From contig JAPOZO010000003.1 in NCBI GenBank assembly GCA_026706025.1, positions 1 through 64,000 of the forward strand: a DNA stretch of 64,000 nt. The letters run 5' to 3'. The notes under the pieces were generated by a model. The model was not told where the DNA came from and did not search any database. It worked only from the letters and a program-made list of their open reading frames with translations. Source of the DNA: Candidatus Poribacteria bacterium (lineage in GTDB: Bacteria; Poribacteria; WGA-4E; WGA-3G). Position numbers and translations under genes: made by a program. This document shows, one piece after another, positions 19,101-50,611 of the stretch. The first letter of the stretch is position 1, and each line of letters begins with the position of its first letter.

Positions 19101-19181
19101 ATTAACTCGTTTACTGTTGATGGTAATATACTTTATGTTGGGACGCCTGGGCATGGCGTGCTACGTTTTACGCTGCATTAG
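16149..19181 (+). CDS. Membrane-tethered ECF sigma factor fused to Asp-box beta-propeller, paralogue 1
   Basis: A 1010-residue fusion. Residues about 5-88 are sigma region 2 (DFHIAQEITQDAFLKAYRQL, FGGWLYVI). Residues about 130-182 are sigma region 4 with KLPESERTVMTLHYLGEMTI and SQNTVKSRLSRARNRL. One membrane helix follows at about 221-244 (LAISAAAAVLIFLMIGVG), then a linker to about 310. The C-terminal 700 residues are a beta-propeller with at least eight Asp-box motifs of S-x-D-x-G-x-T-W type (SVDRGETW, SVDAGKSW, STDLGDSW, TTDAGETW, SFDEGDTW). A helical insert lies near 745-815. GGAAGGAGG precedes the ATG. The sigma part should be cytoplasmic and the propeller outside the membrane; signal and targets are unknown. 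Confidence 0.85.
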   Translation: MQQSDAQLIQQVLQGNQEAFSPLVKKYQKGVHALAWRKIGDFHIAQEITQDAFLKAYRQLRTLKDHNAFGGWLYVIVARECLDYLRRNRIPMESLDTEDSNEVDKVSYSQYVAEKQEEDADETRREVVKELLKKLPESERTVMTLHYLGEMTIKAISEFLGVSQNTVKSRLSRARNRLRKEEDVIHQNLGSFQLPDNLAENIMQEVSRIAPVPPAVSKPMAPLAISAAAAVLIFLMIGVGTPYLSRFQKPYSLNATSEPTVELIDAVFVVDTPAKPAIRYQPGSSHTPGRSPGAGQKQDESLFATLPVDTVEVSTPKSQWNQTKGPEGGVVNSLFMASNGDVYAGSGAELYRLTDDRSTWIPANTDVSIKGYWQMAEHEDTLYIVSDTETLASVDRGETWRVQGARPEGQLIDTVITDEALYLGLVEGVFRSVDAGKSWTSLGDGSLADKKIQAITAIGNTVFVGTDKGLYRHSSEGWVQLQVGETGNIRALASAEHRLYVAVGNDVQHKMFSMTISISSTSKTTLSLYRSTDLGDSWQAIDFPETVSDSKENGWFSFSHEVNKPQVAAQTADNSEVEETSRLKMVAGQERLLVLDGGNSHYSSDAGETWISLDTGTLNMADTFAVAMSGANTFYTGGRFGILRTTDAGETWHPFNTGLVRTSVGNLVHANHALYATIWRELVVSFDGGESWAPVLRRPETLMSLMKFNDMLYVKGVQETSPQLFRVSAEDNGLAPVPEMPSLVVSDVETLIREKFENILSELVQDEPEKNAEERTGLTLGDLDLDLSKLSTVGSQTLEKGVVELIQAYFGSFAVSGSTYYMEYNQQLFRWKPGMTEWFNTGLADAGEAIDSVADLEDQGSIDFKIAVSGKTVYVGKRDGHLLQSFDEGDTWNDVTTALPFSVTQFKAIGFAGPTLYVATDKGVMYSSDGTRWHTAIDAEGAPLVIEKMAVEDTTVYGATAQQIYQLKENSNTWEPVTPEVPSEINSFTVDGNILYVGTPGHGVLRFTLH

Positions 19182-27973: not shown

Positions 27974-28017
27974 ACTTTAATTAAAAGATGGAGATGGACG
28001 CTTCCGGGGGGCTTGTC

Positions 28018-31000
28018 ATGAAACAGAAGGATGCCGAACTCATTCAACGGATATTAGCGGGTGATCAGGACGCATTTACGCCGTTGGTCAACAAATATCA
28101 GAAAGGGGTTCACGCGTTGGCGTGGCGCAAAATTGGGGACTTTCACATCGCACAAGAGATTACGCAGGACGCGTTTCTTAAGGCATATCAGAAACTCGGA
28201 ACCTTGAAAAGTTACGAGTTGTTTGGCGGCTGGCTTTACGTGATTGCGTCAAATTTGTGTCTCGACTATCTCCGAAAGAATCCCCCACCGGAACAATCCT
28301 TGGAAGTTACCGATGTAAGCGAGGTGAATCAAGTGTCATATTCTCGATACATAACAGGAAAGCAGGCAGCAGAAGCGGATGCGTCACGTCGTGAAGTCGT
28401 CAAGAAACTGCTCCAAAAACTGCCAGAGAGCGAAAGAACGGTGATGACGCTGCATTATCTCGGAGAGATGACGATTAAAACGATCAGTGAGTTCCTCGGC
28501 GTATCCCCGAACACTGTCAAAAGCCGGCTCAGTCGGGCGCGGAACCGTTTGAAGAAGGAGGAAGACATGATCCGACAAAACCTCGGCAGTTTCCAACTGC
28601 CTGCGAACTTAACAGAGACCATCATGCGAGAAGTCTCGCGTCTTGTTCCCGCTGCACCTGCTGCGAGTAAACCTGTATTGCCGTGGGCAGTCTCAGCAGC
28701 GTCTGCCGTTTTGATTTTTCTGCTGATGGGTGTTGGTGCACAATACCTTTCGCGTTTCCAGAAACCGTACAATCTAAACGCCACATCGGAGCCGACGGTT
28801 GATCTTATTGAGGCACTTTTTGTTGTGGATACGCCTGCGAAGCCTGCTGTTCGGAATCAGGCAGGGCATTCCGCTATGCCGGGTAGAAATCCAGGGGCAG
28901 GTCGGCAGCCCGAGGCACGACTCTTCGCCGCAGCAGCAGTAGATGAAGCGGAGGTTGTAACCCCGACACCACAGTGGGCGAGAACCAAAGGTCCGGAGGG
29001 CGGTATCGTCAATACCCTCTTTACGACGAATGCTGGTGATATTTACGCAGGGACCCCTTCCAGCCTCTATAAACTCACAGCGGATTCCGGCGCATGGAAA
29101 CACGTCAACACGTGGAGTGCGAGTTCTCTTAACCTCCAAGACTGGATAGTAGGTGCGATACAGATGACAGAGCACGGTGATAGGCTCTATCTCGCCACGG
29201 ATACTGAAATATTAGCATCCAAAGATAAGGGGGAGACATGGAATGTGTTAGGTGTCCATCCAGAAGGAGGATCCAGAGGCTTTGCGGTAACCGACTCTGG
29301 GTTTTATCTCGCACTTATGGAGGGTGTTTACTATTCCAAAGATGGCAAGGCATCGTGGGTAGTGCTGAAAGATGGTATGGCAGCAGAGAAGGTTCGCGCA
29401 CTTGCTGCCGTTGAAAATACGGTGTTTGCTGGCACGGATAGTGGACTTTATCGGCTCAATGCTGAGATGTGGGAACTTGTATCCGTGGGTCCGGTAGATA
29501 AACATGGAGAAAAACCTATAATCCATGCTATGGCTGCTTCAAAACATCGACTCTATGTTGCAGCCGGAAGAGAAGTTACAACGGGGTTTGGGGCACAATT
29601 GAAAACAATAATAACTGGCGGTGACTGGTGGTCGCTTTACCGTTCAACGGATTTGGGGGAGACATGGTATGACATAGATCCGAGAGAAAGGACGGAGAAT
29701 GAGAGGAAACAAAAAGGTGGATTTTCGATTCAATTCCCGGTACGTGGTAAAGATTCGACACAAATGGATTTCACTTACTCGAAGGTCAAGATAATTACGG
29801 CAGAAGGGAGGGTTATGTTAGCGGATTCAAGAGAGCTTTTCTATTCAGTTAACGCAGGTGAGACTTGGCTGTCTTTAGATTTAAAGGATAGATCAGCCGG
29901 CGTTAACAACCTTGCGCCACCTATTGTGATGTTGGATGCGAATACCTTCTACATAGGCACACAATCTGGGGTCCATCGCACAACCGATGCGGGTGAATCG
30001 TGGGATCAATTTAATACCGGACTCGCTGGCACGACTGTTATGTATTTATTCGCTCTTGATGGCAAACTTTATGCGTTCACGATGAATGGATTTGTTACTT
30101 CAACGGATGGTGGCGCATCGTGGATACCGCTTGCCAAAGGTGTTGACGTTAACACAAATAAGGTGGACAAATTTGGCGGTCATCTCTACGCAAGGCGGAT
30201 AAATGGCACGACCCCTCAAATTCTTCGATTTTCAACACAGGACAATAAACTCACCCAGATCGCTGGGATGCCTATACTTATTGAAAAAGTCAATCCGATG
30301 AATAATGATCTAACAAATCAGATCGAACAGACAAGCAATGAGGCGATATTGGAAGCACTGACAGATGCGGGCAAACAGAAGTTTGAGGATGGTAAAGCTC
30401 CAAACTTTGAAGATATTGATCTTGAGCGGTTAGACGAGTGGCAGGACACAATGAGTAAGGTAATCCAAGAGCAGGCTGCAGCTTCCGTGAAACTGGTTTT
30501 GGGAAGCTTTGCTGTTAGTGGCGAGACGTACTACGTCGAATACGGGCAGAAACTTTTCAGATGGAAATCCGGTGAGACTGAATGGTACAACACGGGGTTA
30601 GTAGATGAAGGCGAAGACGTTTTTTCGACTTTATTTTCTGACCCTTTTGACTATTCCCGTGGTATTTCTATGCTAACGAATATGATAGATTCTGTGGGTT
30701 TCAAGATTGCAGTCTCAGGAAAAACCGTTTACGTTGCAAAGCGGGATGGACATCTTGTTCAATCGTTTGATGAAGGAGACACTTGGAAGGATGTCAGGCA
30801 AGAACTTCCGTTTTCTTTTGCGGCGTTTAAGGCACTCACTTTCGCGGGAGCAACTGTTTATGTGGCAACTGACAAAGGGGTGGCACATTCAAGCGACGGT
30901 GCCAACTGGCACGCGGCAACCGATGCGGAAGGTAACCCGCTTGTCGTGGAGAAGTTTGCAGTAGCGGGAACGACAGTATATGGTACAGTTGGGCAATATG

Positions 31001-31146
31001 TGTATCAGTTGAAAGCGGGTTCAAACACGTGGGAACAAGTGACACCTGAGATTCCAGATACCGTATTTTCGCTTGCTGTTGATGGAAACACCCTCTATGT
31101 TGGGACTTCCAGCAGTGGTGTACTACGTTTTACGCTTGATGAATAG
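28018..31146 (+). CDS. Membrane-tethered ECF sigma factor fused to Asp-box beta-propeller, paralogue 2
   Basis: A 1042-residue paralogue. The start is set at 28018 because MKQKDAELIQ aligns with the first residues of the other two copies and is preceded by GGGGGG; an earlier ATG at 27988 adds ten unmatched residues. Sigma region 2 (DFHIAQEITQDAFLKAYQKL) and region 4 (PNTVKSRLSRARNRLKKEE) are intact. The membrane helix is LPWAVSAASAVLIFLLMGVG at about 222-241. The conserved juxtamembrane stretch has RFQKPYNLNATSEPTVDLIE. The propeller carries Asp boxes such as SKDKGETW, STDLGETW, TTDAGESW and SFDEGDTW and ends LRFTLDE. The segment around residues 770-820 differs strongly from the other copies. 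Confidence 0.85.
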   Translation: MKQKDAELIQRILAGDQDAFTPLVNKYQKGVHALAWRKIGDFHIAQEITQDAFLKAYQKLGTLKSYELFGGWLYVIASNLCLDYLRKNPPPEQSLEVTDVSEVNQVSYSRYITGKQAAEADASRREVVKKLLQKLPESERTVMTLHYLGEMTIKTISEFLGVSPNTVKSRLSRARNRLKKEEDMIRQNLGSFQLPANLTETIMREVSRLVPAAPAASKPVLPWAVSAASAVLIFLLMGVGAQYLSRFQKPYNLNATSEPTVDLIEALFVVDTPAKPAVRNQAGHSAMPGRNPGAGRQPEARLFAAAAVDEAEVVTPTPQWARTKGPEGGIVNTLFTTNAGDIYAGTPSSLYKLTADSGAWKHVNTWSASSLNLQDWIVGAIQMTEHGDRLYLATDTEILASKDKGETWNVLGVHPEGGSRGFAVTDSGFYLALMEGVYYSKDGKASWVVLKDGMAAEKVRALAAVENTVFAGTDSGLYRLNAEMWELVSVGPVDKHGEKPIIHAMAASKHRLYVAAGREVTTGFGAQLKTIITGGDWWSLYRSTDLGETWYDIDPRERTENERKQKGGFSIQFPVRGKDSTQMDFTYSKVKIITAEGRVMLADSRELFYSVNAGETWLSLDLKDRSAGVNNLAPPIVMLDANTFYIGTQSGVHRTTDAGESWDQFNTGLAGTTVMYLFALDGKLYAFTMNGFVTSTDGGASWIPLAKGVDVNTNKVDKFGGHLYARRINGTTPQILRFSTQDNKLTQIAGMPILIEKVNPMNNDLTNQIEQTSNEAILEALTDAGKQKFEDGKAPNFEDIDLERLDEWQDTMSKVIQEQAAASVKLVLGSFAVSGETYYVEYGQKLFRWKSGETEWYNTGLVDEGEDVFSTLFSDPFDYSRGISMLTNMIDSVGFKIAVSGKTVYVAKRDGHLVQSFDEGDTWKDVRQELPFSFAAFKALTFAGATVYVATDKGVAHSSDGANWHAATDAEGNPLVVEKFAVAGTTVYGTVGQYVYQLKAGSNTWEQVTPEIPDTVFSLAVDGNTLYVGTSSSGVLRFTLDE

Positions 31147-32916: not shown

Positions 32917-32954
32917 TTTGCATAAACCCTCTTTCTGAAAATATCGTTAAATAA

Positions 32955-32982
32955 TGCAACCTTTTAATATCGAAACCCTGTC
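32955..32982 (+). promoter_or_regulatory. ECF-type promoter element, copy 4 (third sigma-propeller gene)
   Basis: TGCAACC at 32955-32961, a 17-base spacer, TGTC at 32979-32982 (one base off the CGTC of the other copies), then ACTTAAATCAAAAGATG. It lies 40 bases before the ATG. Confidence 0.7.
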
Positions 32983-33022
32983 ACTTAAATCAAAAGATGT
33001 TAGGATTCCGAAGGAGCTTGCA

Positions 33023-36000
33023 ATGGAGCAGAAAGATGCGCAACTCATTCAGCAAGTACTACAGGGCGACCAAGAGGCGTTTGCTATCCTCGTCAACAAG
33101 TATCAGAAAGGTGTGCATGCCCTTGCGTGGCGGAAAATTGGTGATTTTCACATCGCTCAGGAAATCACGCAGGACGCGTTTCTCAGGGCATATCAGAAGC
33201 TCGAAACATTAAAAAATCACAACTTGTTTGGCGGCTGGCTTTATGTCATCGCGGCACGCTTGTGTGCTGATTGGTTTGAAAAGAAATCCTTACCGGAACA
33301 ATCCTTGGAGGTCACTGATATGAGTGAGGTGAATCGCGGGTCATACTCTCGATATGTAGCCGAGAAACAGGAAGCCGAAGCCGATGAGACGCGTCGTGAA
33401 ATCGTCAAGGAACTGCTCCAAAAGCTGCCGGAGAGCGAACGCACAGTGATGACGCTGCATTATCTCGGAGAGATGACAATCAAAACCATTAGTGAGTTCC
33501 TTGGTGTATCCCCGAACACTGTCAAGAGTCGCCTCAGTCGGGCGCGTAACCGTTTGAAGAAGGAGGAAGCCATGATCCGACAAAACCTCGGCAGTTTCCA
33601 ACTGCCTGCGAACTTAACAGAGACCATTATGCGAGAAATATCGCGTCTTGTTCCCGCTGCACCTGCTGCGAGTAAACCCGTCTTACCGTGGGCACTCTCG
33701 GCAGCGTCTGCCGTTTTGATTTTTCTACTAATAGGTGTTGGAACACAATACCTCTCTCGTTTCCAGAAGCCGTATAATCTAAATGCTACATCCGAACCGA
33801 CTGTTGATCTCATCGAGGCAGTTTTTGTTGTTGATACGCTTGCGAAACCCGCTGTGCGAAATCAGGCGGGGGGTTCTACTATACCGGGTAGAAATCCGGG
33901 CGCGGGGCAGCAACCTAATGCCCGATTCCTCGCCGCCGCAGCGGCTGAGGAGACCGAAGTTACAACCTTAATACCGCAGTGGACGCAGACCAAAGGACCG
34001 GAAGGCGGTTTCGTCAATAATTTCTTCACGACGAATTCGGGTGATATTTACGCAGGGACCTCAACGAGTCTTTACAAACTCGGAGCCGATGGACGTGCAT
34101 GGCGACGTGTCAACGCGAGAAGGCTCGGTTCACTGAGCATCCAAGATTGGTTGGGGACTGCGGCACTGATGGCAGCGCATGGTAATATGCTTTATCTCGC
34201 TACCGATACTGAAATATTGGCATCCGAAGATAAGGGTGAGACGTGGCATGCGTTGGGTACGCATCCAAAAGGAATTGCCAGAGGATTTGTGGTGGCTGAC
34301 TCAGGATTTTACCTCGCGCTTACCGGCGGGGTTTACTACTCCAAAGATGGTAAGACTTCGTGGGTTGCTCTGAAAGGTGGCATGGGACTTAATAAGGTTC
34401 GTGCACTTGCAGTTGTTGAAAATACGGTATTTGCTGGGACGAGTAGCGGACTCTATCGGCTTAACGCTCAGACTTGGGAATTGCTGGCAGTTGGTTCTAC
34501 AGATTTGCACGGCGAGAAACCCGTGATCCATGCTTTGGCTGCTTCAAAACATCGACTCTATGTTGCAGCTGGGAAAGAGATGGAAAGGGGGTTCGGCACG
34601 CTATTCAGGTCAAGAAAAACAGACGACAATTGGTGGTCCCTTTATCGCTCAACAGATAAAGGTAAGTCGTGGTACCCTATAGACCCACGCGAGAGGCAGG
34701 AACGTGAGGCGGGTAGGCAGCGGAGGGGTCAAGCTTCGACGGGTTCCCCACTACTCGGGTCAGATAACATTCCGAGCGTTAAGATATTCGCAACAGCTGC
34801 AGGGGTTATGGTGACGGATGCAGAGGGCGAGTTTTTCTACTCCACAAACACTGGAGAGACATGGACGACCTTAGAAAAGGATGGGTCAGGTGGCGGTATC
34901 GCTCCGCCGCTACTGATAGCCGATACAAACATTTTTTATAAAGGTGGCCAGTCCGGGATTCTGCGCACAACCGATGGCGGCGAATCTTGGCATCCGTTTA
35001 ATACGGGGTTTGTTAGCACGCCTGTTACGACTTTAATCGCTGTTAAGGATAGACTCTACGCAAACTCGGTGAATAATAAGTATGTTACCTCAACAGACGG
35101 TGGTGAATCATGGACGCTGCTTCCGAAAATTGACGACAGTGTCCTTATCGCTGCATTTGATAGTAACATATATCTGAAGAAAGGACAGAATATGAATTTA
35201 CCTTCACCGCTACTTCGTCTATCTACTGAAAACAATGGCTTAGAACTTATACCCGATATGCCCGGTTTTGAGGGGGGCAATTCAAGTAACACGGTACAGA
35301 CGGAGATAGACGTGCCTGAAGAAATGATGATCACGGCTTTGCGGGAAGTCTTGCAGGAATCATTTCCAGATAAGGTTAATCAAAATATTGAGGGTCTTGA
35401 TCTTGAACAGGTAGCTGAGATACTCAAGGATATCAATCCTGACCAATTATCTGACCGGATAATTGAGAAACTCGAGAGTAACCCTGATTATGCCAAGGTA
35501 ATGAGTGAGGCGTTCAATAAGGCTTTTGAGGAACAAGTTTCAACGGGTATGCCGTCGTTTTTTGGTAGTTTTGCCGTTAGTGGCGAGAAGTACTACGTCG
35601 AATACGGGCAGAAACTTTTCAGGTGGGAACCCGATATGTCTGAATGGTACGATACGGGGTTAATAGATGAGACTGAAGTTGTTTTTCCTGTTGACTATTC
35701 TGCTGAGGCTTCCACATCTATAAATGTCCGTGATTCCATAGGTTTCAAGATTGCTGTGTCAGGTAACACCGTCTATGTCGGGAAACGGGATGGTCACCTC
35801 TCTCAATCGTTTGATAAGGGGGGGACTTGGAGTGATGTTACTGCTGATCTCCCGTTTTCTGTTACGGCGTTTAATGCAATCACCTTTGCGGGATCAACTG
35901 TTTATGTAGGGACCAACAGCGGGGTGGCACATTCAAGCGATGGCACCCATTGGCACGCGGCAACCAATACTGAGGGTGAACCACTTGTCATGGAGAAGTT

Positions 36001-36190
36001 TGCGGTAGAAGGAACAACGGTCTATGGTACAACCGGGCAATACGTCTATCAGTTGGAAGAAGGTTCAAGCACATGGAAACGGGTGACACCTGAAATCCCG
36101 GATTCCGTCCTTTCGTTTGTTGTGGATGGTAACGTGCTTTATGTTGGGACTACCAGCAGCGGCGTGCTACGTTTCACGTTTGATGAATAA
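33023..36190 (+). CDS. Membrane-tethered ECF sigma factor fused to Asp-box beta-propeller, paralogue 3
   Basis: A 1055-residue paralogue. The start at 33023 (MEQKDAQLIQQVLQGDQEAF) has GAAGGAG before it and matches the other copies; the frame is open to an ATG at 32954, but that ATG lies inside the promoter element. Sigma regions 2 and 4 are intact, including HYLGEMTIKTISEFLGVSP. The membrane helix is LPWALSAASAVLIFLLIGVG at about 222-241. Asp boxes include SEDKGETW, STDKGKSW, STNTGETW, TTDGGESW, STDGGESW and SFDKGGTW. A helical insert (DLEQVAEILKDINPDQLSDR) interrupts the propeller at about 775-850. It ends LRFTFDE. Confidence 0.85.
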   Translation: MEQKDAQLIQQVLQGDQEAFAILVNKYQKGVHALAWRKIGDFHIAQEITQDAFLRAYQKLETLKNHNLFGGWLYVIAARLCADWFEKKSLPEQSLEVTDMSEVNRGSYSRYVAEKQEAEADETRREIVKELLQKLPESERTVMTLHYLGEMTIKTISEFLGVSPNTVKSRLSRARNRLKKEEAMIRQNLGSFQLPANLTETIMREISRLVPAAPAASKPVLPWALSAASAVLIFLLIGVGTQYLSRFQKPYNLNATSEPTVDLIEAVFVVDTLAKPAVRNQAGGSTIPGRNPGAGQQPNARFLAAAAAEETEVTTLIPQWTQTKGPEGGFVNNFFTTNSGDIYAGTSTSLYKLGADGRAWRRVNARRLGSLSIQDWLGTAALMAAHGNMLYLATDTEILASEDKGETWHALGTHPKGIARGFVVADSGFYLALTGGVYYSKDGKTSWVALKGGMGLNKVRALAVVENTVFAGTSSGLYRLNAQTWELLAVGSTDLHGEKPVIHALAASKHRLYVAAGKEMERGFGTLFRSRKTDDNWWSLYRSTDKGKSWYPIDPRERQEREAGRQRRGQASTGSPLLGSDNIPSVKIFATAAGVMVTDAEGEFFYSTNTGETWTTLEKDGSGGGIAPPLLIADTNIFYKGGQSGILRTTDGGESWHPFNTGFVSTPVTTLIAVKDRLYANSVNNKYVTSTDGGESWTLLPKIDDSVLIAAFDSNIYLKKGQNMNLPSPLLRLSTENNGLELIPDMPGFEGGNSSNTVQTEIDVPEEMMITALREVLQESFPDKVNQNIEGLDLEQVAEILKDINPDQLSDRIIEKLESNPDYAKVMSEAFNKAFEEQVSTGMPSFFGSFAVSGEKYYVEYGQKLFRWEPDMSEWYDTGLIDETEVVFPVDYSAEASTSINVRDSIGFKIAVSGNTVYVGKRDGHLSQSFDKGGTWSDVTADLPFSVTAFNAITFAGSTVYVGTNSGVAHSSDGTHWHAATNTEGEPLVMEKFAVEGTTVYGTTGQYVYQLEEGSSTWKRVTPEIPDSVLSFVVDGNVLYVGTTSSGVLRFTFDE

Positions 36191-38469: not shown

Positions 38470-38911
38470 ATGCGTATGAAACGCACGCGAACTTATGTGA
38501 TATTAGGAATGGCGTTGTTGCTAAGTATGAGTCTATTGACCAAGAAGATCGCTCCAGCGAAACATCAATATTCTGGCAATGCCCAGAAAGTCGTCAATGG
38601 CATAGGTGTCGTCACGTGTCTCTACGTCAATCCGATGTTTCTGCGACACGACGAGGGTGTAGCAGTCGCTGGCAGGTTGAACACTTTCACCGTGAGGCTA
38701 AACAGCTAACAGGTTTGGAAAAATGCCAATGTCGCCTCGCGCGTATCGTGCGGAATCACATCGGTGCTGCGTTCCTTGTATGGGTTTACCTGATGCGGAA
38801 AGCTTATGAAACCGGTCAAACCCTTTATCAAGTCAAACATGGCATGCTCTCTGAGTATCTGCGTCAACAACTCAAATCACCTATGATAAAAATTAAAAAT
38901 GCGTAAGTCCT
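38470..38911 (+). pseudogene. DDE transposase remnant (IS701/IS4-like), internally deleted
   Basis: The first part, in one frame, reads KKIAPAKHQYSGNAQKVVNG followed by GVVTCLYV, which resembles the region after the first catalytic Asp of IS701/IS4-type transposases. After about 38640 another frame gives WQVEHFHREAKQLTGLEKCQ and RNHIGAAFLVWVYLMRKA, the C-terminal part with the catalytic Glu. The middle, with the second Asp, is missing. The 20 bases after its stop contain TGCGTAAGTCCT (38900-38911), the end shared with the 120-bp elements. The first 24 codons look like a signal peptide with its own ribosome-binding site, probably foreign to the transposase. Confidence 0.65.
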
Positions 38912-39969: not shown

Positions 39970-39998
39970 TTGACAATAAGATCTTAACTTGCTAAAAT
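39970..39998 (+). promoter_or_regulatory. Sigma-70-type promoter for the outer-membrane cassette
   Basis: TTGACA at 39970-39975, 17 bases, TAAAAT at 39993-39998, 33 bases before the ATG at 40032. Confidence 0.65.
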
Positions 39999-40031: not shown

Positions 40032-42308
40032 ATGAAAACGCGTATTTTTATCTTATTCCTATTGCTAATCGCATCTGGACTCACACACGCCGAAACGACT
40101 GACGGCAGAATCGCTTTTGATTGCCCTGATGCACCACACGCCCAATTTCAATTCCATTTTACTCGCGAACTTATCGCACTTGCTGGCACGACAGCACCTT
40201 TTAACACAGTGTCGGATATTTATTTCCGCACCTATGACGCTGAAGTCGGTATATTTGATCAATTCGCGCAGTACTATGGTGAGACCTTGAAAACCGCAAA
40301 CTGGCAAAGTCTACAAGAAGATAACGACGTATTCCTCTATACGCTGGAGGCATCCAGTGTGCAGAGTTCGCAGTCAGATAAAGCGATTTTGGGTATCTTC
40401 GCAGTTGTAAAAAGCGACAGCGATGTGCATCTGCTAAACATCGTAGGCAATATTCCGCCGCAACAGACAAGGCAGCTTTTAGCGAATCTGGGTCAAATTG
40501 GGATAGAGGTCTCTGCATTAGAATCGCTTGATGCGCAAATATTTCAGAAATTTGAAAAACCACCAGAACCGATGGCACCACCAACCTTGTTGCGTACCAC
40601 TGGCAAGCAGCCAGATTTTTTTAGCGTGAAGTTTTCAACGAAAAGAGAGGCGTCAAAGTTTGGCTTCTCGTTCTCAAGAAGCCACAATGAAACCCTTCAT
40701 GGACAGTGGCATTACTATGGGCATCCGATTGAACAGATCCATATTCGGTCTGACAGTAAAGCGCGTATAGCCGAAATTAGTGAGGCACTTCAAAAAGGAC
40801 CCGCTGACATTGAGGCTGTAATGGCGCGTCTTCCATCCGTAAATACATCTGAATATAAGAAGAAACTTATTGTTCACACATCGGAACGTCTTGCGACGAT
40901 TAGCGTTGGGAATATACCAGACCATAAAAATGAACCTTTTATGTTAGCGAAACAGTTTCGGACCGGAGAAGGGGAGCCAATTCGTGAGATACGGATTCAA
41001 GGACATCGAGACACACATCTGAAGGATGTTAAAAAGGCACTTGAAAAGGGGCCGGAAGACATCGAAAAGGCGATCAGAACACTGCCGAGCGAGATATCGG
41101 GTTTAGAAGATGCACGTCTCCGAATTGAAGGGGAAGGTGCTCAACGTACAGCGATAATTACCATAGTCGAAACACCGCTTCCCTTACGTTTTTATTTTGA
41201 TAGTGCCCCGTGGGCTGGGTTCAATCGCGTCACTGGATGGGAGTTAGGGGCACGTGTCAATTCTGGTTATCGGAAAGGGGAGCGTCCAAACACATCTTAC
41301 AACATCAGCGTTCCGAGTGTCTTCCGTGGCGATGATCTCTCAAAATTTTTCGGACGGGTCGGTTATGGATTTGGTAATAAACAGTTCTATTACCGGATTG
41401 GTGGCAAGGCTGCTTGGGATGAACCTGATTCGTGGCATCTTGGATTAACAACGCAGTTCCATCGCACGACAAGCGTCATTGCCCCGGATCTTTTTCCGTT
41501 TTATGATGATACAGGTATGAGCATTCTCCGAGTTTTGGGGGTGCCGGATCATCAGAATTACTATTTGAGGGAAGGACTTGAGATCGCCTTACAATGGAGA
41601 CCTATTCGGCAAAGGCATTCGTTCAAACTGAGTCTACTTGCGGAGTCACACGACAGTCTACAAAAAAGCACGGATTGGCACTTCTTCAACTGGCGGTCAA
41701 AATCAGAAGTGCGTGAAAATCCAGTAGTAACGCCGGGTAGAATGCGGAGTGTCATGTTCAGATACGATTACAGTACTCGGCACGATTTTCTCGGTTGGCA
41801 CAATACCTTTTTCGCTGAGCATAGCAATACGGCGATCGGATCCGATTTTGATTTTACACGGTATCAACTCCACCTACGCTATGCGCATCCGTTGGGTAGC
41901 CATCAGGTACGCACACGGACAGTCGGCAGCTTTTCAACCGCACCGCTGCCGATTCAACGCCAATTTGTTATCGGTGGACCCGGGTTACTGAACGGCTATC
42001 CGCTTTACGCTTTTGCGGGTGACCGGGGATTCCTCTTCAATATCGAGTTTCTTTTCCATTTGCCTGCGTTAATGACTTGGAATAGCGTATTCGATTTTTC
42101 CGATTTCCCTCTTTTTTTAGCGCTGTTTTTTGATGCCGGGCAGGCATGGAACGCGTCAGAGGAGAAATACATTTTTGAACCCAAGAGCAATGCTGGTATC
42201 GGCTTGCAGTTCGGTGAAACAGATCTTATCTTGCGGTTTAACGTTTCACAAGCCTTTGAAGCCGATCAAGGAATTCAGTTCAACACAGCGTGGTTTTATA
42301 GTTTCTAA
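40032..42308 (+). CDS. Omp85/BamA-like outer-membrane protein A with DUF4252-like N domain
   Basis: A 758-residue protein. The signal peptide is MKTRIFILFLLLIASGLTHA. Residues about 25-175 resemble DUF4252 (ILGIFAVVKSDSDVHLLNIV). Two or three short POTRA-like units follow (IREIRIQGHRDTHLKDVKKA), each with a long acidic helix around EKGPEDIEKAIRTLP. From about 390 a surface-antigen barrel begins at FNRVTGWELGARV and includes RQFVIGGPGLLNGYPLYAFA, the Omp85 signature loop, and a final FNTAWFYSF with C-terminal Phe. It is probably an outer-membrane insertion or export pore. A paralogue lies at 43490-45979. Confidence 0.8.
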   Translation: MKTRIFILFLLLIASGLTHAETTDGRIAFDCPDAPHAQFQFHFTRELIALAGTTAPFNTVSDIYFRTYDAEVGIFDQFAQYYGETLKTANWQSLQEDNDVFLYTLEASSVQSSQSDKAILGIFAVVKSDSDVHLLNIVGNIPPQQTRQLLANLGQIGIEVSALESLDAQIFQKFEKPPEPMAPPTLLRTTGKQPDFFSVKFSTKREASKFGFSFSRSHNETLHGQWHYYGHPIEQIHIRSDSKARIAEISEALQKGPADIEAVMARLPSVNTSEYKKKLIVHTSERLATISVGNIPDHKNEPFMLAKQFRTGEGEPIREIRIQGHRDTHLKDVKKALEKGPEDIEKAIRTLPSEISGLEDARLRIEGEGAQRTAIITIVETPLPLRFYFDSAPWAGFNRVTGWELGARVNSGYRKGERPNTSYNISVPSVFRGDDLSKFFGRVGYGFGNKQFYYRIGGKAAWDEPDSWHLGLTTQFHRTTSVIAPDLFPFYDDTGMSILRVLGVPDHQNYYLREGLEIALQWRPIRQRHSFKLSLLAESHDSLQKSTDWHFFNWRSKSEVRENPVVTPGRMRSVMFRYDYSTRHDFLGWHNTFFAEHSNTAIGSDFDFTRYQLHLRYAHPLGSHQVRTRTVGSFSTAPLPIQRQFVIGGPGLLNGYPLYAFAGDRGFLFNIEFLFHLPALMTWNSVFDFSDFPLFLALFFDAGQAWNASEEKYIFEPKSNAGIGLQFGETDLILRFNVSQAFEADQGIQFNTAWFYSF

Positions 42309-42374
42309 GCGAAATTAATTCTGTTTAGGTGTCCTTTCTGACCGCACAGTTTCAAATGCAGGGGGTATAATGCG

Positions 42375-43475
42375 ATGCGAAGACGCACAAACCGTGCCTT
42401 GTTGCTATCATTTGGTCTACATATTGCGTTGGCGTTAATGCTCTCCCCGTTTCTTGTGAATCATTTCGATGCAGAGAAAGAGAGCATATCTGCGGAGATC
42501 CTGGAAGTGGACTCGGAAAAACGGGTGAAACGGCAGGTTTTGCCGCCGCGTCTGCGGCTAATGGCACGAGCGGCAAGTGCTGAAACATCATCGGCTTCAC
42601 CGGCTTCACCGACTTATGCGCCGCGGGTCAGTGCGCCTAAAGCACCCGTTCATACCGATGTTGCGCCTGATGTCGTTACACACGCCGATATACCAAAAGC
42701 GGATCGTCCCAGTGTCGTTTCCAATACCAGTTTTGGCGAAGGGAAAACTCTGGGAGGTCCCGTTGCCATTGAAGGGCAGAATGGAAGAGGCGCGGGTGGC
42801 GTTGGTGTCGGTTTCGGTGGACCTGATCGTCAAGGGAGTGGCTTTGGCATGGGGTTAGCCAGTGGGATGGGTGTATCGGAAGCCGGACTGGATATCCCGG
42901 TTCGTATAGATACAGGACTCGGTATTTTTGGTACGGAAGTGAAACCCGGGCACGGATTAGTCGGACAAGTTTATGTACCCGGGGAGGTTATCTCCCAAAT
43001 GCCTGATTTTGACAGCTTGGTACCTGTCTATACTTTTGTCACAGCAAACTTAAATGTCCCTAAACGAATCTATACCGCGGGCTTTCCGACACCTGAGAAG
43101 CAGTCTGTCATTGAGAATTTTGCGATTCGCTTCCGTACCGAATTGGAGATTAATATACCGGGTACGTATATCTTTGAACTCAGCTCAGATGACGGCTCAC
43201 AATTATATATTAATGGGTCTCTCGTTGTGGATAATGATGGAATCCATTCAGTAATAAGTAGGCAGGGACGTATAAGGCTTGGAACGGGCATACACCTTGT
43301 TGAGATACACTATTTCCAAGGTCCTCGAGATGCTATCGCCCTACAATGGTTTTATCAACCCCCAAATGGCTTCAGACAAATTGTGCCACCCGATGTGATC
43401 TATCACCCCGGCGAACCACAAATTCCAGATGCTTTGAAAAAACTACAGCAACGCCTGAAAAGGGTTCAAGAATAG
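42375..43475 (+). CDS. PA14-domain protein with TonB-like N terminus
   Basis: A 366-residue protein. An N-terminal helix (LLLSFGLHIALALMLSPFLV, about 9-28) preceded by Arg residues looks like the anchor of TonB-like proteins. It is followed by a basic and Ala/Pro-rich linker and a Gly-rich segment (GVGFGGPDRQGSGFGMGLAS). The C-terminal half (about 215-345) is a PA14 domain with FELSSDDGSQLYINGSLVVD and a DD motif likely to bind calcium or sugar. It should be anchored in the inner membrane and span the periplasm. It lies between two Omp85-like genes with gaps of 66 and 14 bases, so one operon is likely. Confidence 0.75.
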   Translation: MRRRTNRALLLSFGLHIALALMLSPFLVNHFDAEKESISAEILEVDSEKRVKRQVLPPRLRLMARAASAETSSASPASPTYAPRVSAPKAPVHTDVAPDVVTHADIPKADRPSVVSNTSFGEGKTLGGPVAIEGQNGRGAGGVGVGFGGPDRQGSGFGMGLASGMGVSEAGLDIPVRIDTGLGIFGTEVKPGHGLVGQVYVPGEVISQMPDFDSLVPVYTFVTANLNVPKRIYTAGFPTPEKQSVIENFAIRFRTELEINIPGTYIFELSSDDGSQLYINGSLVVDNDGIHSVISRQGRIRLGTGIHLVEIHYFQGPRDAIALQWFYQPPNGFRQIVPPDVIYHPGEPQIPDALKKLQQRLKRVQE

Positions 43476-43489
43476 TAACGGAGATGTAG

Positions 43490-45979
43490 ATGAAATATCC
43501 CATTGCGGGTACGTTAGTGCTGTTCTTATTTCTGATATGTTATTCAGTCAATTCACAATCCGACAACGGGCTTGTCCCTTTTGATTGCCCGGATGTGTCA
43601 TCGTCTCAGTTCCAATTTGATTTACGGCGCGATGTTATCGCGCTCGTTATGGAAGACCCGACCTCCGACGTTGCGCCACTGTTTAAAAGCGTGGATAACT
43701 TATATCTCAGGAACTACCGAAACCGAGCTGGCAATTTTAAGAAGATGATTAAGTATTACAGCGAAGCACTGAAAACACGTGATTGGAGTGCGTTAGGACA
43801 GTATCCACAAACTGATGCTGAGAAAATTAGTCTTCACCTTTACGTTCTGCTTCAGAATGAAACCGTTAAAGGCATCTTCGTCATCGTCAAAGACAAGGAC
43901 GGAATTTACCTGATAAACATTGTCTGCGAGATTCCGAGGCGGCAGCTGGGTGAGTTATTGATGAACCTGAATCAACTCGGTATCGAAATTCCGAGATTGA
44001 TGTCGCTAAAGCCTCGTGATTTAGAACTCGCGCCGCCACCGCCACCGCCACCGCCTGAACCCCTTAAACCAGATCCAGAGCCCCCGATTACAGAGAAACG
44101 TGAGACAGCGGAACCCACCACAGATGAGACCCCTGAGCCACCGCCGCTTTGGGATTGGTATGCTGATGGCGATAGGATTCATGAGATACAGATTCAGAGC
44201 AAGCTCACATCCCCTGAAGGCACCGATCCAAAGTTGATTGAAGAAACAATCGTAGCCGAAAGGGAGAAGCTCCTGAAGATTCTAAGAAACGGCTCTGGTG
44301 AACTCAGAGAGGTTATACCAATTCTATCAGGCGCGCTTGATGATTCCAGAAAGGTATCTCTGCGGACTACAGAAGAAGGGACGAAACGCATCGCTATCAT
44401 TAGCGTGATATCTATGAAGAAAATATCGGTGCTGAAATCTATGGAGATCTCAGGTAAGCGAGAACAGGTAACAGTGGAGGATACGTGGTTCCTTTCACAA
44501 GAAGATCAGTTTGATACGCCGCTTGCAGCAACACGATTTTGGGCAAAGGATGTCCCGATTCACGAGGTCCGTATCCGCGGCAATCAGAAGGTACCAGAAT
44601 CGCGTATTCGGCAGACGCTTGATAACGCTTCACCTGATATTGATAAGGCACTCAGGACGCTCTTTAAAGTGATGCCCTATTTTGAGGAGGTCCGGCTACA
44701 GGTTGATGAAGCGGATGCAAAGTATATCGCCACGATCTCTGTAGAAGAAAAACCACTTTCTACAGATGCCTATCTCGGTCTCAGTCCGCCGATACGCCTC
44801 GGTTTTAACCGCGTGACAGGATGGGAAATCGGCACAAGTTTTGAAGCCGGAAAACGCAAAGAGGTCGGTCCTCTCTGGATGTGGAGCATCAGGAATTCAC
44901 AGCGCAATCAAATCTCAAGGCTGTTTGGAAAAGTCAGTTATGCATTCGGCAACCCACATATCCATTACCATCTGGGGGGAATTGCGAATTGGGGAAAACC
45001 GTATGCTTGGAACTTGAAGCTTATCGGGCAACTCCACCGGTTGACAGATGCAGTTGCCCCTGAACTTTTTCCGGGCTACAACAGCGGAATAAGCATTTTC
45101 CAGCGTATTATTGGTGTGCCGGACCTTCAAAATTACTATTTGCGACAAGGTGCTGAGATCGGATTGTATTGGGCACCGATTATGCCGACGCATTCGTTCA
45201 GGTTGTCAATGCTTGCTGAGTCACACGCAAGTCTTCAGAAAAGCACTGATTGGTTTATTACCAATTGGACATCGAAACTAAGTGTCAGAGAGAATCCACC
45301 GATAACTGCCGGTCAGCTGCGGGGTCTTATCTTTCAATACGATTTTCTGAATAGAACAAAATCCCTCGGCTGGCATAATACTTTTCTTGCTGAACATAGT
45401 AGTGCAGCTGTGGGGTCTGATTTTGATTTCACACGATTACAATTACACCTTCGATATGCTTTCCCACTTGAGAATAACCGAATTCGGACCCGGCTTTTGC
45501 TTGGTTATTCTAACTCGCCATTGCCCATTCAACGCCAATTCGTGGTTGGTGGGATGGGTGGACTTAGAGGATATCCTTGGTATAGACAAGAAGACGGAGC
45601 TGATGGTATAATAACCTATGAGAGTGGACATGCATCTTCTCCTTATGCGTTCGCAGGGGACAGCGGATTTCTTCTCAATATTGAATATCACTACAAACTG
45701 TCGAATCTATTGCGTTGGAATATTTTCAAAAATGCGTTTCTCGTGGCTTTCTTTGATGAGGGACAAGTCTGGAACGTATCTGATACTGATTATACCTTTG
45801 ATCCAAAAGCAAGTGTTGGCATCGGTTTACAATTTGGTCAAGACGACTCTGCTGTTGTAGTTAACGTTCCGAGTTTACACTCTGGACGCGACGATTCTTT
45901 CTTTAGGGTTAACATTGCCAAAGCCCTTGAATCTGGTCTTGGTGTTCAAATTACGACTGCTTGGTATCGCAGTTTTTAA
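43490..45979 (+). CDS. Omp85/BamA-like outer-membrane protein B
   Basis: An 829-residue paralogue of the protein at 40032. Signal peptide (LVLFLFLICYSVNSQ), DUF4252-like domain (GIFVIVKDKDGIYLINIVCE), then a proline-rich linker with eight consecutive Pro at about 183-190. Two POTRA-like units follow (IHEVRIRGNQKVPESRIRQT), then the barrel from FNRVTGWEIGTSFEAG. It has RQFVVGGMGGLRGYPW, the Omp85 loop in its canonical form, and ends ITTAWYRSF. The loop after RGYPW is longer than in protein A. GGAGATG precedes the ATG. It may form a second, specialised channel working with the PA14 protein. Confidence 0.8.
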   Translation: MKYPIAGTLVLFLFLICYSVNSQSDNGLVPFDCPDVSSSQFQFDLRRDVIALVMEDPTSDVAPLFKSVDNLYLRNYRNRAGNFKKMIKYYSEALKTRDWSALGQYPQTDAEKISLHLYVLLQNETVKGIFVIVKDKDGIYLINIVCEIPRRQLGELLMNLNQLGIEIPRLMSLKPRDLELAPPPPPPPPEPLKPDPEPPITEKRETAEPTTDETPEPPPLWDWYADGDRIHEIQIQSKLTSPEGTDPKLIEETIVAEREKLLKILRNGSGELREVIPILSGALDDSRKVSLRTTEEGTKRIAIISVISMKKISVLKSMEISGKREQVTVEDTWFLSQEDQFDTPLAATRFWAKDVPIHEVRIRGNQKVPESRIRQTLDNASPDIDKALRTLFKVMPYFEEVRLQVDEADAKYIATISVEEKPLSTDAYLGLSPPIRLGFNRVTGWEIGTSFEAGKRKEVGPLWMWSIRNSQRNQISRLFGKVSYAFGNPHIHYHLGGIANWGKPYAWNLKLIGQLHRLTDAVAPELFPGYNSGISIFQRIIGVPDLQNYYLRQGAEIGLYWAPIMPTHSFRLSMLAESHASLQKSTDWFITNWTSKLSVRENPPITAGQLRGLIFQYDFLNRTKSLGWHNTFLAEHSSAAVGSDFDFTRLQLHLRYAFPLENNRIRTRLLLGYSNSPLPIQRQFVVGGMGGLRGYPWYRQEDGADGIITYESGHASSPYAFAGDSGFLLNIEYHYKLSNLLRWNIFKNAFLVAFFDEGQVWNVSDTDYTFDPKASVGIGLQFGQDDSAVVVNVPSLHSGRDDSFFRVNIAKALESGLGVQITTAWYRSF

Positions 45980-46099
45980 GTCGAGTGAACGTCTTTATCT
46001 CTGTTATGATATCCGTGCCGACTGCTTCTATGAATTCACTGGAGGATGCGGATACATTCACTTTCGTATTAAGATTGTCTCTGTTTGGAGCGAGCAATC

Positions 46100-46828
46100 A
46101 TGCGAATTATTCTATTACTAACGATTATTGTCATAATGTCTGTCCCGGCAGTGCTTCTGGACGGAGAAGGCGACAGCGACCTATTTACCTTTGTTCGCTT
46201 GAAATATAGCGGGCAACTCACGCGACTGCGTAGTTGGAGTGTGGATTGGCCAGCCTCGGATCGGAATTTTATCTGGCAGCTCAGTAAGCAGACGAACATT
46301 TCGGTCGCGCCCCGTGAAAAGATTATTGAGGTCGGTGCGTTAGAGTTATTTGAATACCCTTTCGCGTATATGCTCGAAGTCGGTAGCCTCAGGTTAAGCA
46401 CGAGCGAGGCAGAAAATCTACGGGAATATCTCTTACGTGGTGGGTTTATCTTTATTGACGATTTTCACGGAGAACGTGAATGGAAGTGGTTTTATACTGA
46501 GTTCAAGAAAATTTTCCCTGATCGTGAACCGGTGGACATCCCGATTTCACATCCAATTTTCCGCTGCTTTTTTAAAATTGACAAGTTGATCCAAATCCCT
46601 GGGCTCCGTTCGCTCTTTAATGATCGCACCTACGAACGACACGACGGATATCCTGCGTACTGCCGTGGTGTTTACGATGATTATGGCAGATTGATGATGA
46701 TGATCAATTTTAATTCCGATCTTGGCGATGCATGGGAACACGCCGCTGAGGACTACTACCCGCGTGAGTATTCGGATATGGCACTGAAGATGGGTATCAA
46801 TGCTGTTGTTTATACGCTCACCCATTAG
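46100..46828 (+). CDS. DUF4159-domain protein
   Basis: A 242-residue exported protein. The start at 46100 (MRIILLLTIIVIMSVPAVLL) follows TTGGAGCGAG. The mature part is a DUF4159 domain: FTFVRLKYSGQ, SWSVDWPASDRNFIWQLSKQ, PFAYMLEVGSLRLSTSEAEN, GGFIFIDDFHGEREW, then HPIFRCFFKI. The fold resembles a glutamine-amidotransferase-like domain without a known activity. It lies 120 bases after Omp85-like B, probably the last gene of the cassette. Confidence 0.8.
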   Translation: MRIILLLTIIVIMSVPAVLLDGEGDSDLFTFVRLKYSGQLTRLRSWSVDWPASDRNFIWQLSKQTNISVAPREKIIEVGALELFEYPFAYMLEVGSLRLSTSEAENLREYLLRGGFIFIDDFHGEREWKWFYTEFKKIFPDREPVDIPISHPIFRCFFKIDKLIQIPGLRSLFNDRTYERHDGYPAYCRGVYDDYGRLMMMINFNSDLGDAWEHAAEDYYPREYSDMALKMGINAVVYTLTH

Positions 46829-47020: not shown

Positions 47021-47794
47021 ATGCTCACTCGTAAACAGAAGTTAGATTTTTATGAAAATGGCTATATCTCTGTTCCTGGTGTTGTGCCAAGACTGATGGT
47101 GGATGCCGCGCGAAAGGCGATAAATCACTCCATCGGCGCGGTTGGCATGCACGAAGGAGACTTAGAACGCTTTCGGGCACAGTCCTATTGCAACGAGATT
47201 CGCAATGCTCCGGAACTCGTAGATCTTTTCGGCAAGACCCCTATCCGTCAAATTGCGGAGTCGTTGATGGGTGAAGGGAATGTCCAGATACCTGGTTCTG
47301 CCCAGATTGCGCTCCGGTTCCCGGGTCCGTTGGGGACAGATCCGAACGAACCGCGTGGACATCTTGATGGGTTGGGAAGTGGCACAAATGGTATGGAAAA
47401 AGGCGTTTATCGGCGTGGTTTTACTGCCCTTGCGGTTGTCTACCTTGCGGATGTACCGGAACCATATAGCGGCAATTTCACCGTCTGGCCGAAATCACAC
47501 AGTTTCTTCGCCGATTATTTTAAAAAGGAAGGACATGAGATATTGGCAAACGGGATGCCGCGACCTGAACTCCCTGAGGGACCTAAACAGATAGTGGGTC
47601 AGGCAGGGGATGTTGTCTTGACGCATCATCAGATCGTTCATTCTGCGGCACCGAACGCCGCTGCTGATGTCCGTTACGCTGTGATTTTCCGGCTGCGTCA
47701 TGTCGATTGTGCCGAAAACGGTTACGATGCCTACACAGATATATGGAAAGAGTGGCCCGGTATTCAAGAGGTTATTACGCCGACGGAAGGGTAG
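47021..47794 (+). CDS. PhyH-family dioxygenase
   Basis: A 257-residue Fe(II)/2-oxoglutarate dioxygenase. N terminus MLTRKQKLDFYENGYISVPG. The metal ligands are RGHLDGLG (His-x-Asp) and a distal His in VVLTHHQIVHSAAPN, with an Arg after it in VRYAVIFRLRH. AGGGAGA precedes the ATG. It is convergent with the LamG gene, with a strong hairpin between. The substrate is unknown. Confidence 0.85.
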   Translation: MLTRKQKLDFYENGYISVPGVVPRLMVDAARKAINHSIGAVGMHEGDLERFRAQSYCNEIRNAPELVDLFGKTPIRQIAESLMGEGNVQIPGSAQIALRFPGPLGTDPNEPRGHLDGLGSGTNGMEKGVYRRGFTALAVVYLADVPEPYSGNFTVWPKSHSFFADYFKKEGHEILANGMPRPELPEGPKQIVGQAGDVVLTHHQIVHSAAPNAAADVRYAVIFRLRHVDCAENGYDAYTDIWKEWPGIQEVITPTEG

Positions 47795-47811: not shown

Positions 47812-47837
47812 ACGGGTGGTGCGAGTGCACCACCCGT
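47812..47837. terminator. Hairpin between convergent genes
   Basis: ACGGGTGGTGC-gagt-GCACCACCCGT, a perfect 11-base-pair stem between the PhyH gene (+) and the LamG gene (-). It probably ends both transcripts, although neither side has a long T run. Confidence 0.6.
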
Positions 47838-49659: not shown

Positions 49660-50496
49660 TTAGGAGTATCCACCGATACCGAGTAGCATCCGTTCTTCCA
49701 TGTCTGCCTCTTTAATAAAATCGTGTGTTAACCCGTCTTCGGGTTGTGCCCCGCCGTGTGGCGATTTCCGTAACCATGTCGGTGTATAACTTAGGATTAA
49801 CATTCGCCGTTTGGCGTTTAGCGTCGGTAAGCCTCGGTGCCAGAGATTACCGTGGATGAGGACACCCCCTCCAGCTTTCACCTGTAGATGTACCTCACCT
49901 TCTACAGGTTCGTGGACAGTCGGTGATGCTTTGTCTAACCAGTTGTGAGACCCCGGGACAATAGCGACTGCCCCTGTATCTTCATTCAAATCATCGAGAT
50001 AGATGAGACAATCGATGCAGTGTGGACGTGAAAACCATGGCGGGATTGGGTTCGGAATCACTCGCATGTGTTGGTGCCACGGCGTTTGGTGTTCCCGACC
50101 ATCACCCGGATAAGTGATGCGTGCGCTCAAACCACGCAGCCGGACGAGCGGTCCCATCATCGCTCGTGCGATTGACAGGGTCGGTTGAAATTTCAAGAGC
50201 TGAAGAAAAACTTCATCTTTATCCATAAGGTGGCGCGGGATGAAGCCCCAACCTTTCTTACCAGCAATAGCACTGTCGCGTTTTTCCCATTCCCGTTCTT
50301 CCAAACGATCCAAAGCATCTCTCAGCTTTTCGAGTGCTTCACCTTGAAAAAGTCCTTCACGAATAAGATAACCGGTCTCGGCAAACGTTTGTAGTTCTTC
50401 GGAAGTGGCATGCACATCCACTTCCCAGTGCTCTCCCGTCTCTCCGGATGGATCGAATCTGTTCATCATTTCATAGTGAAGTTTATGTCGTTCCAT
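49660..50496 (-). CDS. PhyH-family protein with altered iron-binding motif
   Basis: A 278-residue protein. The start at 50496 (MERHKLHYEMMNRFDPSGET) follows GAGGGA; a longer frame to 50544 lacks a ribosome-binding site. The fold is PhyH-like with CLIYLDDLNEDTGAVAIVPG and a distal His at IHGNLWHRGLPT, but the usual His-x-Asp is TPWHQHMRV here, giving His-x-His. The C-terminal Arg is present in KRRMLILSY. The enzyme may bind iron differently, use a neighbouring Asp, or not be a hydroxylase. Confidence 0.8.
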   Translation of the reverse strand: MERHKLHYEMMNRFDPSGETGEHWEVDVHATSEELQTFAETGYLIREGLFQGEALEKLRDALDRLEEREWEKRDSAIAGKKGWGFIPRHLMDKDEVFLQLLKFQPTLSIARAMMGPLVRLRGLSARITYPGDGREHQTPWHQHMRVIPNPIPPWFSRPHCIDCLIYLDDLNEDTGAVAIVPGSHNWLDKASPTVHEPVEGEVHLQVKAGGGVLIHGNLWHRGLPTLNAKRRMLILSYTPTWLRKSPHGGAQPEDGLTHDFIKEADMEERMLLGIGGYS

Positions 50497-50611
50497 AGTT
50501 CCCTCAATTGATTTTAAACAATAGATATTATGTTTCCAGCGCAACGATGGCTTTCACACACCATAGGAAAATCTCTTTCTGGTTCAGCGTTGACATCGGT
50601 GTGGGCAATAA

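Follow-up and report, generated by a model that had tools for sequence, protein, structure and literature searches.

A predicted TonB/TolA-type transducer with a PA14 head, encoded among DUF4252-Omp85 barrel genes of Candidatus Poribacteria

The membrane that houses Omp85 barrels holds no ATP and no ion gradient, and for BamA and TamA we know of no energy source based on the proton-motive force (PMF). A four-gene cassette of Candidatus Poribacteria, a sponge-symbiont bacterium, raises the question of how such barrels could be energised from the inner membrane. The cassette lies at 40032-46828 of a 64,000-nucleotide stretch (the window) of contig C3 (JAPOZO010000003.1) from genome G000, an assembly of 6.27 Mb in 103 contigs. 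Its four open reading frames (ORFs), all on the + strand, encode in order a barrel protein (B1), a PA14 protein, a second barrel protein (B2) and a DUF4159 protein. Pfam names Omp85 twice, PA14 and DUF4159, and the cassette that an earlier interpretation of the letters alone (the sequence-only reading) had placed here is real. The products are predicted for the inner membrane, the periplasm and the outer membrane, as expected of the trans-envelope set which that reading envisaged. Relatives in the named collections are metagenome-assembled genomes of Candidatus Poribacteria, and all 11 loci confirmed in one scan of genome contigs come from Poribacteria. We hold it to be an evenly balanced proposition that the cassette encodes a trans-envelope PMF transducer with interchangeable heads, acting on barrels of DUF4252-POTRA-Omp85 architecture.

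Anchor, heads and tail of the PA14 protein

The PA14 gene (42375..43475) encodes 366 residues comprising a TonB/TolA-type anchor, a Pro/Gly-rich linker, a PA14 head and a C-terminal tail. The first 30 residues, RALLLSFGLHIALALML, make up a hydrophobic helix, for which the TolA helix RAIIISAVLHVILFAAL offers a comparison (PMC12215075). Within it, Ser12 and His16 form a Ser-X3-His (S-X3-H) signature (42408..42422). Alignment of 32 PA14 N-termini (A5), hand-chosen out of a larger set and with identity down to 26%, demonstrated that these two residues are the sole invariant columns, and the signature is present in 61 of 61 PA14-bearing homologues, the full count, to which one genome contributes several proteins. 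The Ser and His of the motif make contact with ExbB and TolQ in the TonB and TolA of E. coli (PMC12215075), and the two residues have been described as contacting the motor in both proteins (PMC8928145, PMC12215075).

Because Pfam, NCBIfam and PDB profiles were uninformative, the anchor was compared with TonB proteins of the same phylum. It matched the anchors of Poribacteria TonB_C proteins at hhalign 96.8% (E 2.5e-10), a value somewhat inflated because the regular expression that picked these 14 sequences from TonB_C loci, leaving out pattern-less or short-frame ones, demands a His in the hydrophobic stretch. The corresponding values were below 1% for the signal regions of B1 and B2 and 53% for the N-termini of DUF4159 proteins, some of which bear a relic of the same anchor. 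The term "TonB-like", used for this protein in the sequence-only reading, thus holds precisely, through the Ser-X3-His signature and the match to Poribacteria TonB anchors.

Besides that inflation, several points tell against a transducer anchor. Comparison with PDB and Pfam profiles produced chance-level matches only, none of them named TonB, and NCBIfam gave a weak TolA match (0.028) in just 3 of 32 members. As to the rest of the SHLS motif, the window protein has Leu23, a position held by Ile, Val or Leu in the others, and has no Ser27; the Leu and the final Ser are reported to be less conserved in the Ton system (PMC12215075). Nor do the motor genes lie beside the cassette: contig C95 (88168-90242) bears one clear ExbB gene (1.7e-32) with three consecutive ExbD genes, and a second, marginal MotA_ExbB match (9.5e-4) is on C72. 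The ExbB on C95 (L124:7602-9646) carries an N-terminal carboxypeptidase-regulatory-like domain and is followed by the tandem ExbD genes. The genome also holds true TonB_C proteins (4 matches), and one Poribacteria genome paper describes expressed TonB, and an ExbD located at the membrane.

Downstream of the helix, the strand-like stretch ESISAEILEV (42480..42509), recognised from sequence and alignments, is a candidate "motor box", a term of PMC12204202. Pfam finds only PA14 in the protein (residues 246-325, 43110..43349; 5.9e-12), with neither a TonB_C nor a TolA C-terminal domain, and for this reason we do not class it as TonB or TolA; PHROGs returned no match for the PA14 or DUF4159 proteins. 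Conserved residues and domain content together show a predicted transducer of the TonB/TolA type, in which PA14 substitutes for the C-terminal domain of TonB. Such an anchor would confine the head to the periplasm, which leaves the surface display proposed in the sequence-only reading unsupported; for display or export there is no direct evidence, and no cargo gene was identified.

The head of this transducer appears to be exchangeable. In the cassette, DUF4159 is the domain of a secreted protein (46085..46828, Pfam 3.1e-50; likelier start ATG at 46100). In genome G006, a 426-residue protein (L046:8356-9636), whose gene sits between the B1 and PA14 genes, has the PA14-type anchor, linker and tail around DUF4159 (Pfam 1.6e-50). 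The tail, PQIPDALKKLQQRLKRVQE in the window protein (43413..43472), is kept there although DUF4159 replaces PA14; its residues P351, L354, L357, Q358, R360 and L361 are invariant over 27 rows, the swapped protein included. At L053, L062, L074 and L075, a shorter anchor-like N-terminus precedes DUF4159 in the same slot, with the His lost in three of the four. Elsewhere in the window's own genome, S-X3-H anchors bear DUF4159 (about 440-490 residues) or vWA, as judged by Pfam on one protein of each kind. These proteins reveal the TonB/TolA anchor as a general adaptor, which one lineage has fitted with TonB_C, vWA, DUF4159 and PA14 heads.

Two further observations concern such anchors outside the cassette. 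The vWA-headed protein on contig C2 (L138:1089-2180) resembles the transducers of PMC12204202, and in G068 and G073 PA14 sits on a different S-X3-H anchor (L194 and L198; Pfam was run on L194).

Gene order and the partners of the PA14 protein

If the PA14 protein is a transducer, its anchor helix would dock onto the ExbB-ExbD motor of the genome, a step supported by the conserved residues, and PMF would move the PA14 head. The head or the tail could then work on the periplasmic DUF4252 and POTRA domains of B2, and perhaps of B1; for this coupling, gene order is the only basis. The step driven at the outer membrane might be one of opening or export, or the insertion of a substrate that is glycan-linked or a protein. 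DUF4159 would act as a partner in the periplasm and also as another possible head for this kind of transducer. The specific scheme of a PMF-driven Omp85 translocon, in which ExbB-ExbD works the DUF4252 and POTRA domains of the barrel pair via a PA14-headed SHLS transducer, is one that we regard as doubtful.

Gene order was counted in 32 of the 38 genomes of genus g1 (G011, G013, G023, G027, G082 and G083 were left out). The full order B1-PA14-B2-DUF4159 occurs at 24 of the 32 loci, among them L052, where 3.7 kb of inserted sequence separates B1 from PA14. PA14 and B2 are adjacent at all 32, with a gap of 14 bp in the window. Among the eight incomplete loci, L075 and L077 stop before DUF4159, L034 and L039 begin inside PA14, in L072 and L079 a sigma-BNR gene precedes PA14 near a contig end, and L042 and L073 lack an upstream B1, the PA14 gene of L073 being broken. 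Extra PA14 or DUF4159 copies are common in g1. The complete order also recurs, amid other flanking genes, in both genomes of genus g18 and in six of the sister genus g19 (G070, G074, G075, G076, G079 and G081). The conserved order by which the sequence-only reading had proposed to check its cassette therefore exists, and since the flanking genes in g19 are unlike those in g1, the cassette moves and persists as a unit. Ratios of nonsynonymous to synonymous substitution, from four comparisons per gene, were 0.17-0.24 for B1, 0.18-0.29 for PA14, 0.14-0.21 for B2 and, lowest, 0.042-0.071 for DUF4159; purifying selection acts on each of the four.

Other genomes speak against a single joint machine. 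No B1 lies beside PA14 in G019 and G035. In family f4, three barrel-PA14 loci (L064, L065 and L070) have no DUF4159, and in G043 and G047 a barrel occurs with no PA14 match. PA14 is found at E<1e-90 in 16 of 18 g19 genomes, and 8 of these 16 (G065, G066, G068, G069, G071, G073, G077 and G080) are without any B1/B2-type match, barrel presence or absence being judged by genome-level best E-values. In all eight, PA14 and DUF4159 stand side by side, although a 133-residue ORF separates them in G073 and the G066 contig is just 3.7 kb long. PA14 thus has two kinds of neighbour, the barrels and DUF4159, either of which some lineages have dropped. The four genes are thus looser than one obligate four-part complex. 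The joint system envisaged in the sequence-only reading stands as a conserved gene set and falters as a fixed partnership, since PA14-DUF4159 occurs without barrels in eight g19 genomes and the barrel-PA14 loci of f4 lack DUF4159.

The same distribution gives a tentative place to an alternative that we consider possible, though short of probable: the PA14 and DUF4159 proteins may form a PMF-driven pair of their own, acting on peptidoglycan or an envelope glycan, with the barrels as independent riders in the operon that serve outer-membrane assembly or uptake. The adjacency kept in the barrel-less genomes, the interchange of DUF4159 and PA14 as heads and the barrels without PA14 in G043 and G047 all favour it. 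So does the DUF4159 gene of G080 (L200:9573-10370), whose first part encodes a signal peptide resembling that of B2, apparently a scar left when B2 was deleted. It sits less well with the tight packing of PA14 and B2 wherever both exist, and with f4, where PA14 keeps the barrels in the absence of DUF4159; there, PA14 stays with the barrels, so that its steady partner varies by lineage.

The barrel proteins and their DUF4252 domains

Both barrel proteins open with a signal peptide and a DUF4252-type domain, the region that the sequence-only reading had noticed on the two of them. In B2 (43490..45979, 829 residues; Pfam Omp85 1e-13), the DUF4252 domain spans residues 41-178 (43610..44023) and is recognised by Pfam at 3.2e-6 (27.8 bits against a gathering cut-off of 23.9). 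B1 (40032..42308, 758 residues; Pfam Omp85 3.4e-8) has no Pfam DUF4252 match at E<=1. Its domain (residues 23-169, 40098..40538) was delimited by a hidden Markov model (HMM) built here, with B1 in the training set, and by an independent profile comparison. The B1 N-terminus shares 37% identity with that of B2 (E 1.2e-27), and a B1-only profile, with B2 excluded, matched stand-alone DUF4252-type proteins at hhalign 99.45% (E 5.1e-22), one of which is itself a Pfam DUF4252 protein (9.7e-9). DUF4252 is present in every cassette barrel scanned for it (L201-L203 were not among them).

Could this domain be an ordinary POTRA extension? Modelled alone from 66 sequences, it reached a mean predicted local distance difference test (pLDDT) of 89.5, with the order b-a-b-a-b-b-b-b-a. 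It matched both POTRA units at hhalign 0.05-1.7% only, compared with 98.7% between POTRA 1 and POTRA 2 of B2, and the model fold differs; the reading as a POTRA extension is rejected, and the domain is DUF4252-type by Pfam and model in B2 and by homology in B1. No Foldseek match was obtained at E<=0.001. The best structural match is DcrB (Foldseek E 1.8e-3, Z 7.0, root-mean-square deviation 4.2 over 116 residues), followed by PsbP/Mog1-like proteins; DcrB-type folds lead the matches listed, among which no POTRA entry is named. Profile search against the PDB by sequence found nothing significant for the domain, and no sequence relation to the DcrB/PsbP/Mog1-like proteins. The modelled likeness to these proteins is a lead only, as a Z below 8 may reflect a mere common arrangement.

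In the full AlphaFold2 model of B2 (mean pLDDT 76.4, predicted template modelling score 0.51), a signal helix is followed by the DUF4252 domain, then by disorder over residues 188-219, two POTRA units with the order b-a-a-b-b, and a barrel. POTRA 1 (residues 232-308, 44183..44413) and POTRA 2 (359-420, 44564..44749) are placed by the model, hhalign and HMM, and the barrel (436-825, 44795..45964) by the model, its motif and structural matches. The model has 16 barrel strands, as counted by eye from the DSSP line. Against solved structures, B2 matches from about residue 228, with Z 22.8 for Sam50, 21.5 for TamA and 20.8 for BamA (overall range 20-22.8; TamA 21.1-21.5); a sequence search of solved structures returned nothing significant. 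POTRA units and a 16-strand barrel, the hallmarks of Omp85 proteins, are thus given for B2 by the model, and for B1 by Pfam and alignment only. In B1, the POTRA-like region (residues 230-381, 40719..41174) is a single HMM match of 152 residues, long enough that it could hold two units. The HMMs built here count two units in B2 of family f1, one in several B1 proteins of 563-679 residues and none in the g18 B1 proteins (604 and 609 residues), with the proviso that one long match may span two units.

The barrels differ at the L6 motif, [VIL]RG[FY], which reads LRGY in the window B2 (45563-45574) and LNGY in B1. In a 54-row alignment, the 31 B2-grouped rows have Arg in 28, Lys in one (L154) and Asn in two (family f4), whereas the 23 B1-grouped rows all have Asn or Ser, except for the distant paralogues L067 and L069 with Arg. 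Despite this replacement, the FxDxG of a late strand is mostly kept in cassette B1 barrels.

The two POTRA units ahead of an Omp85 barrel, the place of TamA with the nearest folds and a PA14 gene lodged between barrel genes invite another explanation, in which both barrels serve secretion or assembly in the manner of two-partner systems or of TamA, and the PA14 protein, anchored in the inner membrane, is a passive, TamB-like bridge that makes no use of PMF. The Pfam ShlB (TpsB) profile, whose cut-off is 22.7 bits, is also missed only narrowly, at 19.8 and 18.7 bits. In TamA-TamB, too, a periplasmic protein anchored in the inner membrane is coupled to a barrel of the Omp85 family. We nevertheless judge this explanation improbable. 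The barrels are not equivalogs of either family, since NCBIfam scores lie far under the cut-offs (37.8 and 19.8 bits against 297 for BamA; 13 against 625 for TamA), both invariant anchor residues of the PA14 protein are motor binders in TonB and TolA, and at 366 residues the protein is small for a passive bridge. The cassette partner further differs from TamB, which was not itself searched for, in its motor-binding helix.

Paralogous DUF4252-Omp85 proteins at L080-L083 and L203 (contig C94 of G000 and relatives) carry a CBM9-like domain instead of POTRA. Their genes adjoin those of an extracytoplasmic function (ECF) sigma factor and a zf-HC2 protein, and often that of a stand-alone DUF4252 protein. 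Tandem related genes accompany such ECF-linked loci, with four copies at L081:2974-6418 and five at L083:9086-13810, one of them DUF5694. The PA14 domains and the CBM9 of these paralogues may point to a glycan substrate.

Surroundings, known systems and meaning

The window also contains three fusions of an ECF sigma factor to BNR/Sortilin-type repeats, at 16149-19181, 27988-31146 and 32954-36190. The third has a hydrophobic stretch between its sigma and repeat parts and may therefore be a membrane-tied sigma factor. A sigma-BNR gene was rejected as a module part because it is too widespread. A further alternative, in which the DUF4252-barrels take no part in transport and make up a module for envelope sensing or stress linked to ECF sigma signals, is highly improbable: the ECF and zf-HC2 neighbours of the CBM9 paralogues and the sigma-BNR genes 5' of many cassettes would fit it, but such genes are repeated within the window (16149, 27988, 32954) and missing 5' of some cassettes (L145, L146), which makes their link to the cassette a loose one.

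Other features around the cassette are minor. A promoter-like site, TTGACA-17-TAAAAT with TG before the second hexamer (39970..39998, + strand; 11 of 12 matches), lies 34 bases 5' of B1; it is weak, because shuffled versions of the region hold as many such sites on average (mean 19.2, compared with 19 in the region itself). Upstream, at 38616-38906, is a DDE transposase fragment. Downstream, a PhyH-type dioxygenase gene (47021..47794, + strand) is a conserved neighbour in g1, is separate in g18 and non-adjacent in g19, and was left out of the module. A GC-rich hairpin of 11 pairs, 8 of them G-C (47812..47837, listed on the - strand), lies between it and a converging gene and is possibly their shared terminator. 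A tRNA-Glu call (49846-49929, +) falls inside an opposite-strand ORF (49660-50544) and may be false.

Returning to the proposed PMF transducer, its nearest published relatives are the SHLS-anchored transducers with a non-TonB vWA head, described in 2025 in Mol Biol Evol (PMC12204202). These share with the PA14 protein a conserved Ser/His motor helix, a disordered linker that includes what looks like a strand, and a head without relation to the C-terminal domain of TonB or TolA. They differ in that their head is vWA and their genes accompany motor genes, whereas the cassette has PA14 or DUF4159 heads and lies with Omp85 barrels; the text of that paper contains neither PA14 nor Poribacteria (0 occurrences each). 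TonB-ExbB-ExbD and TolA-TolQ-TolR share the S-X3-H anchor helix, and the window protein also has the Leu at +11 from the Ser. The cassette protein lacks their TonB_C or TolA C-terminal domain and would act with a barrel of the Omp85 type, where those systems have a plugged TonB-dependent transporter or Pal/TolB. With TamA, BamA and TpsB, the cassette barrels have in common POTRA units, a predicted 16-strand barrel, the LRGY of B2 and the late-strand FxDxG; they are set apart by DUF4252 ahead of POTRA and by Asn or Ser for the L6 Arg in B1.

Within the open-licence literature of PubMed Central, PA14 or DUF4159 heads and their pairing with DUF4252-Omp85 barrels were not found, nor was any mention of DUF4159, or of Omp85, TonB and the PA14 domain together. 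DUF4252 is named in five papers there. Searches for Poribacteria with PA14, and for the PA14 domain with ExbB, gave two papers and one paper, respectively, which by title concern other subjects. In two Poribacteria genome papers, a term search found no Omp85 or PA14, and in one of them no TonB either. The statement in the sequence-only reading that the system matches no described one needs dividing: a transducer kind with a foreign head is already in print, while the PA14 and DUF4159 heads and their pairing with DUF4252-Omp85 barrels appear to be new.

If the proposed mechanism is true, an Omp85 machine gains an energy source via PMF, and the cassette may show how cells send energy to outer-membrane barrels. 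The adaptor with its several heads gives DUF4159 a role that can be put to the test for the first time, and sets DUF4252 in a context of other domains. The cassette is a concrete, mutable case in which to ask whether the inner membrane can power an Omp85 machine.

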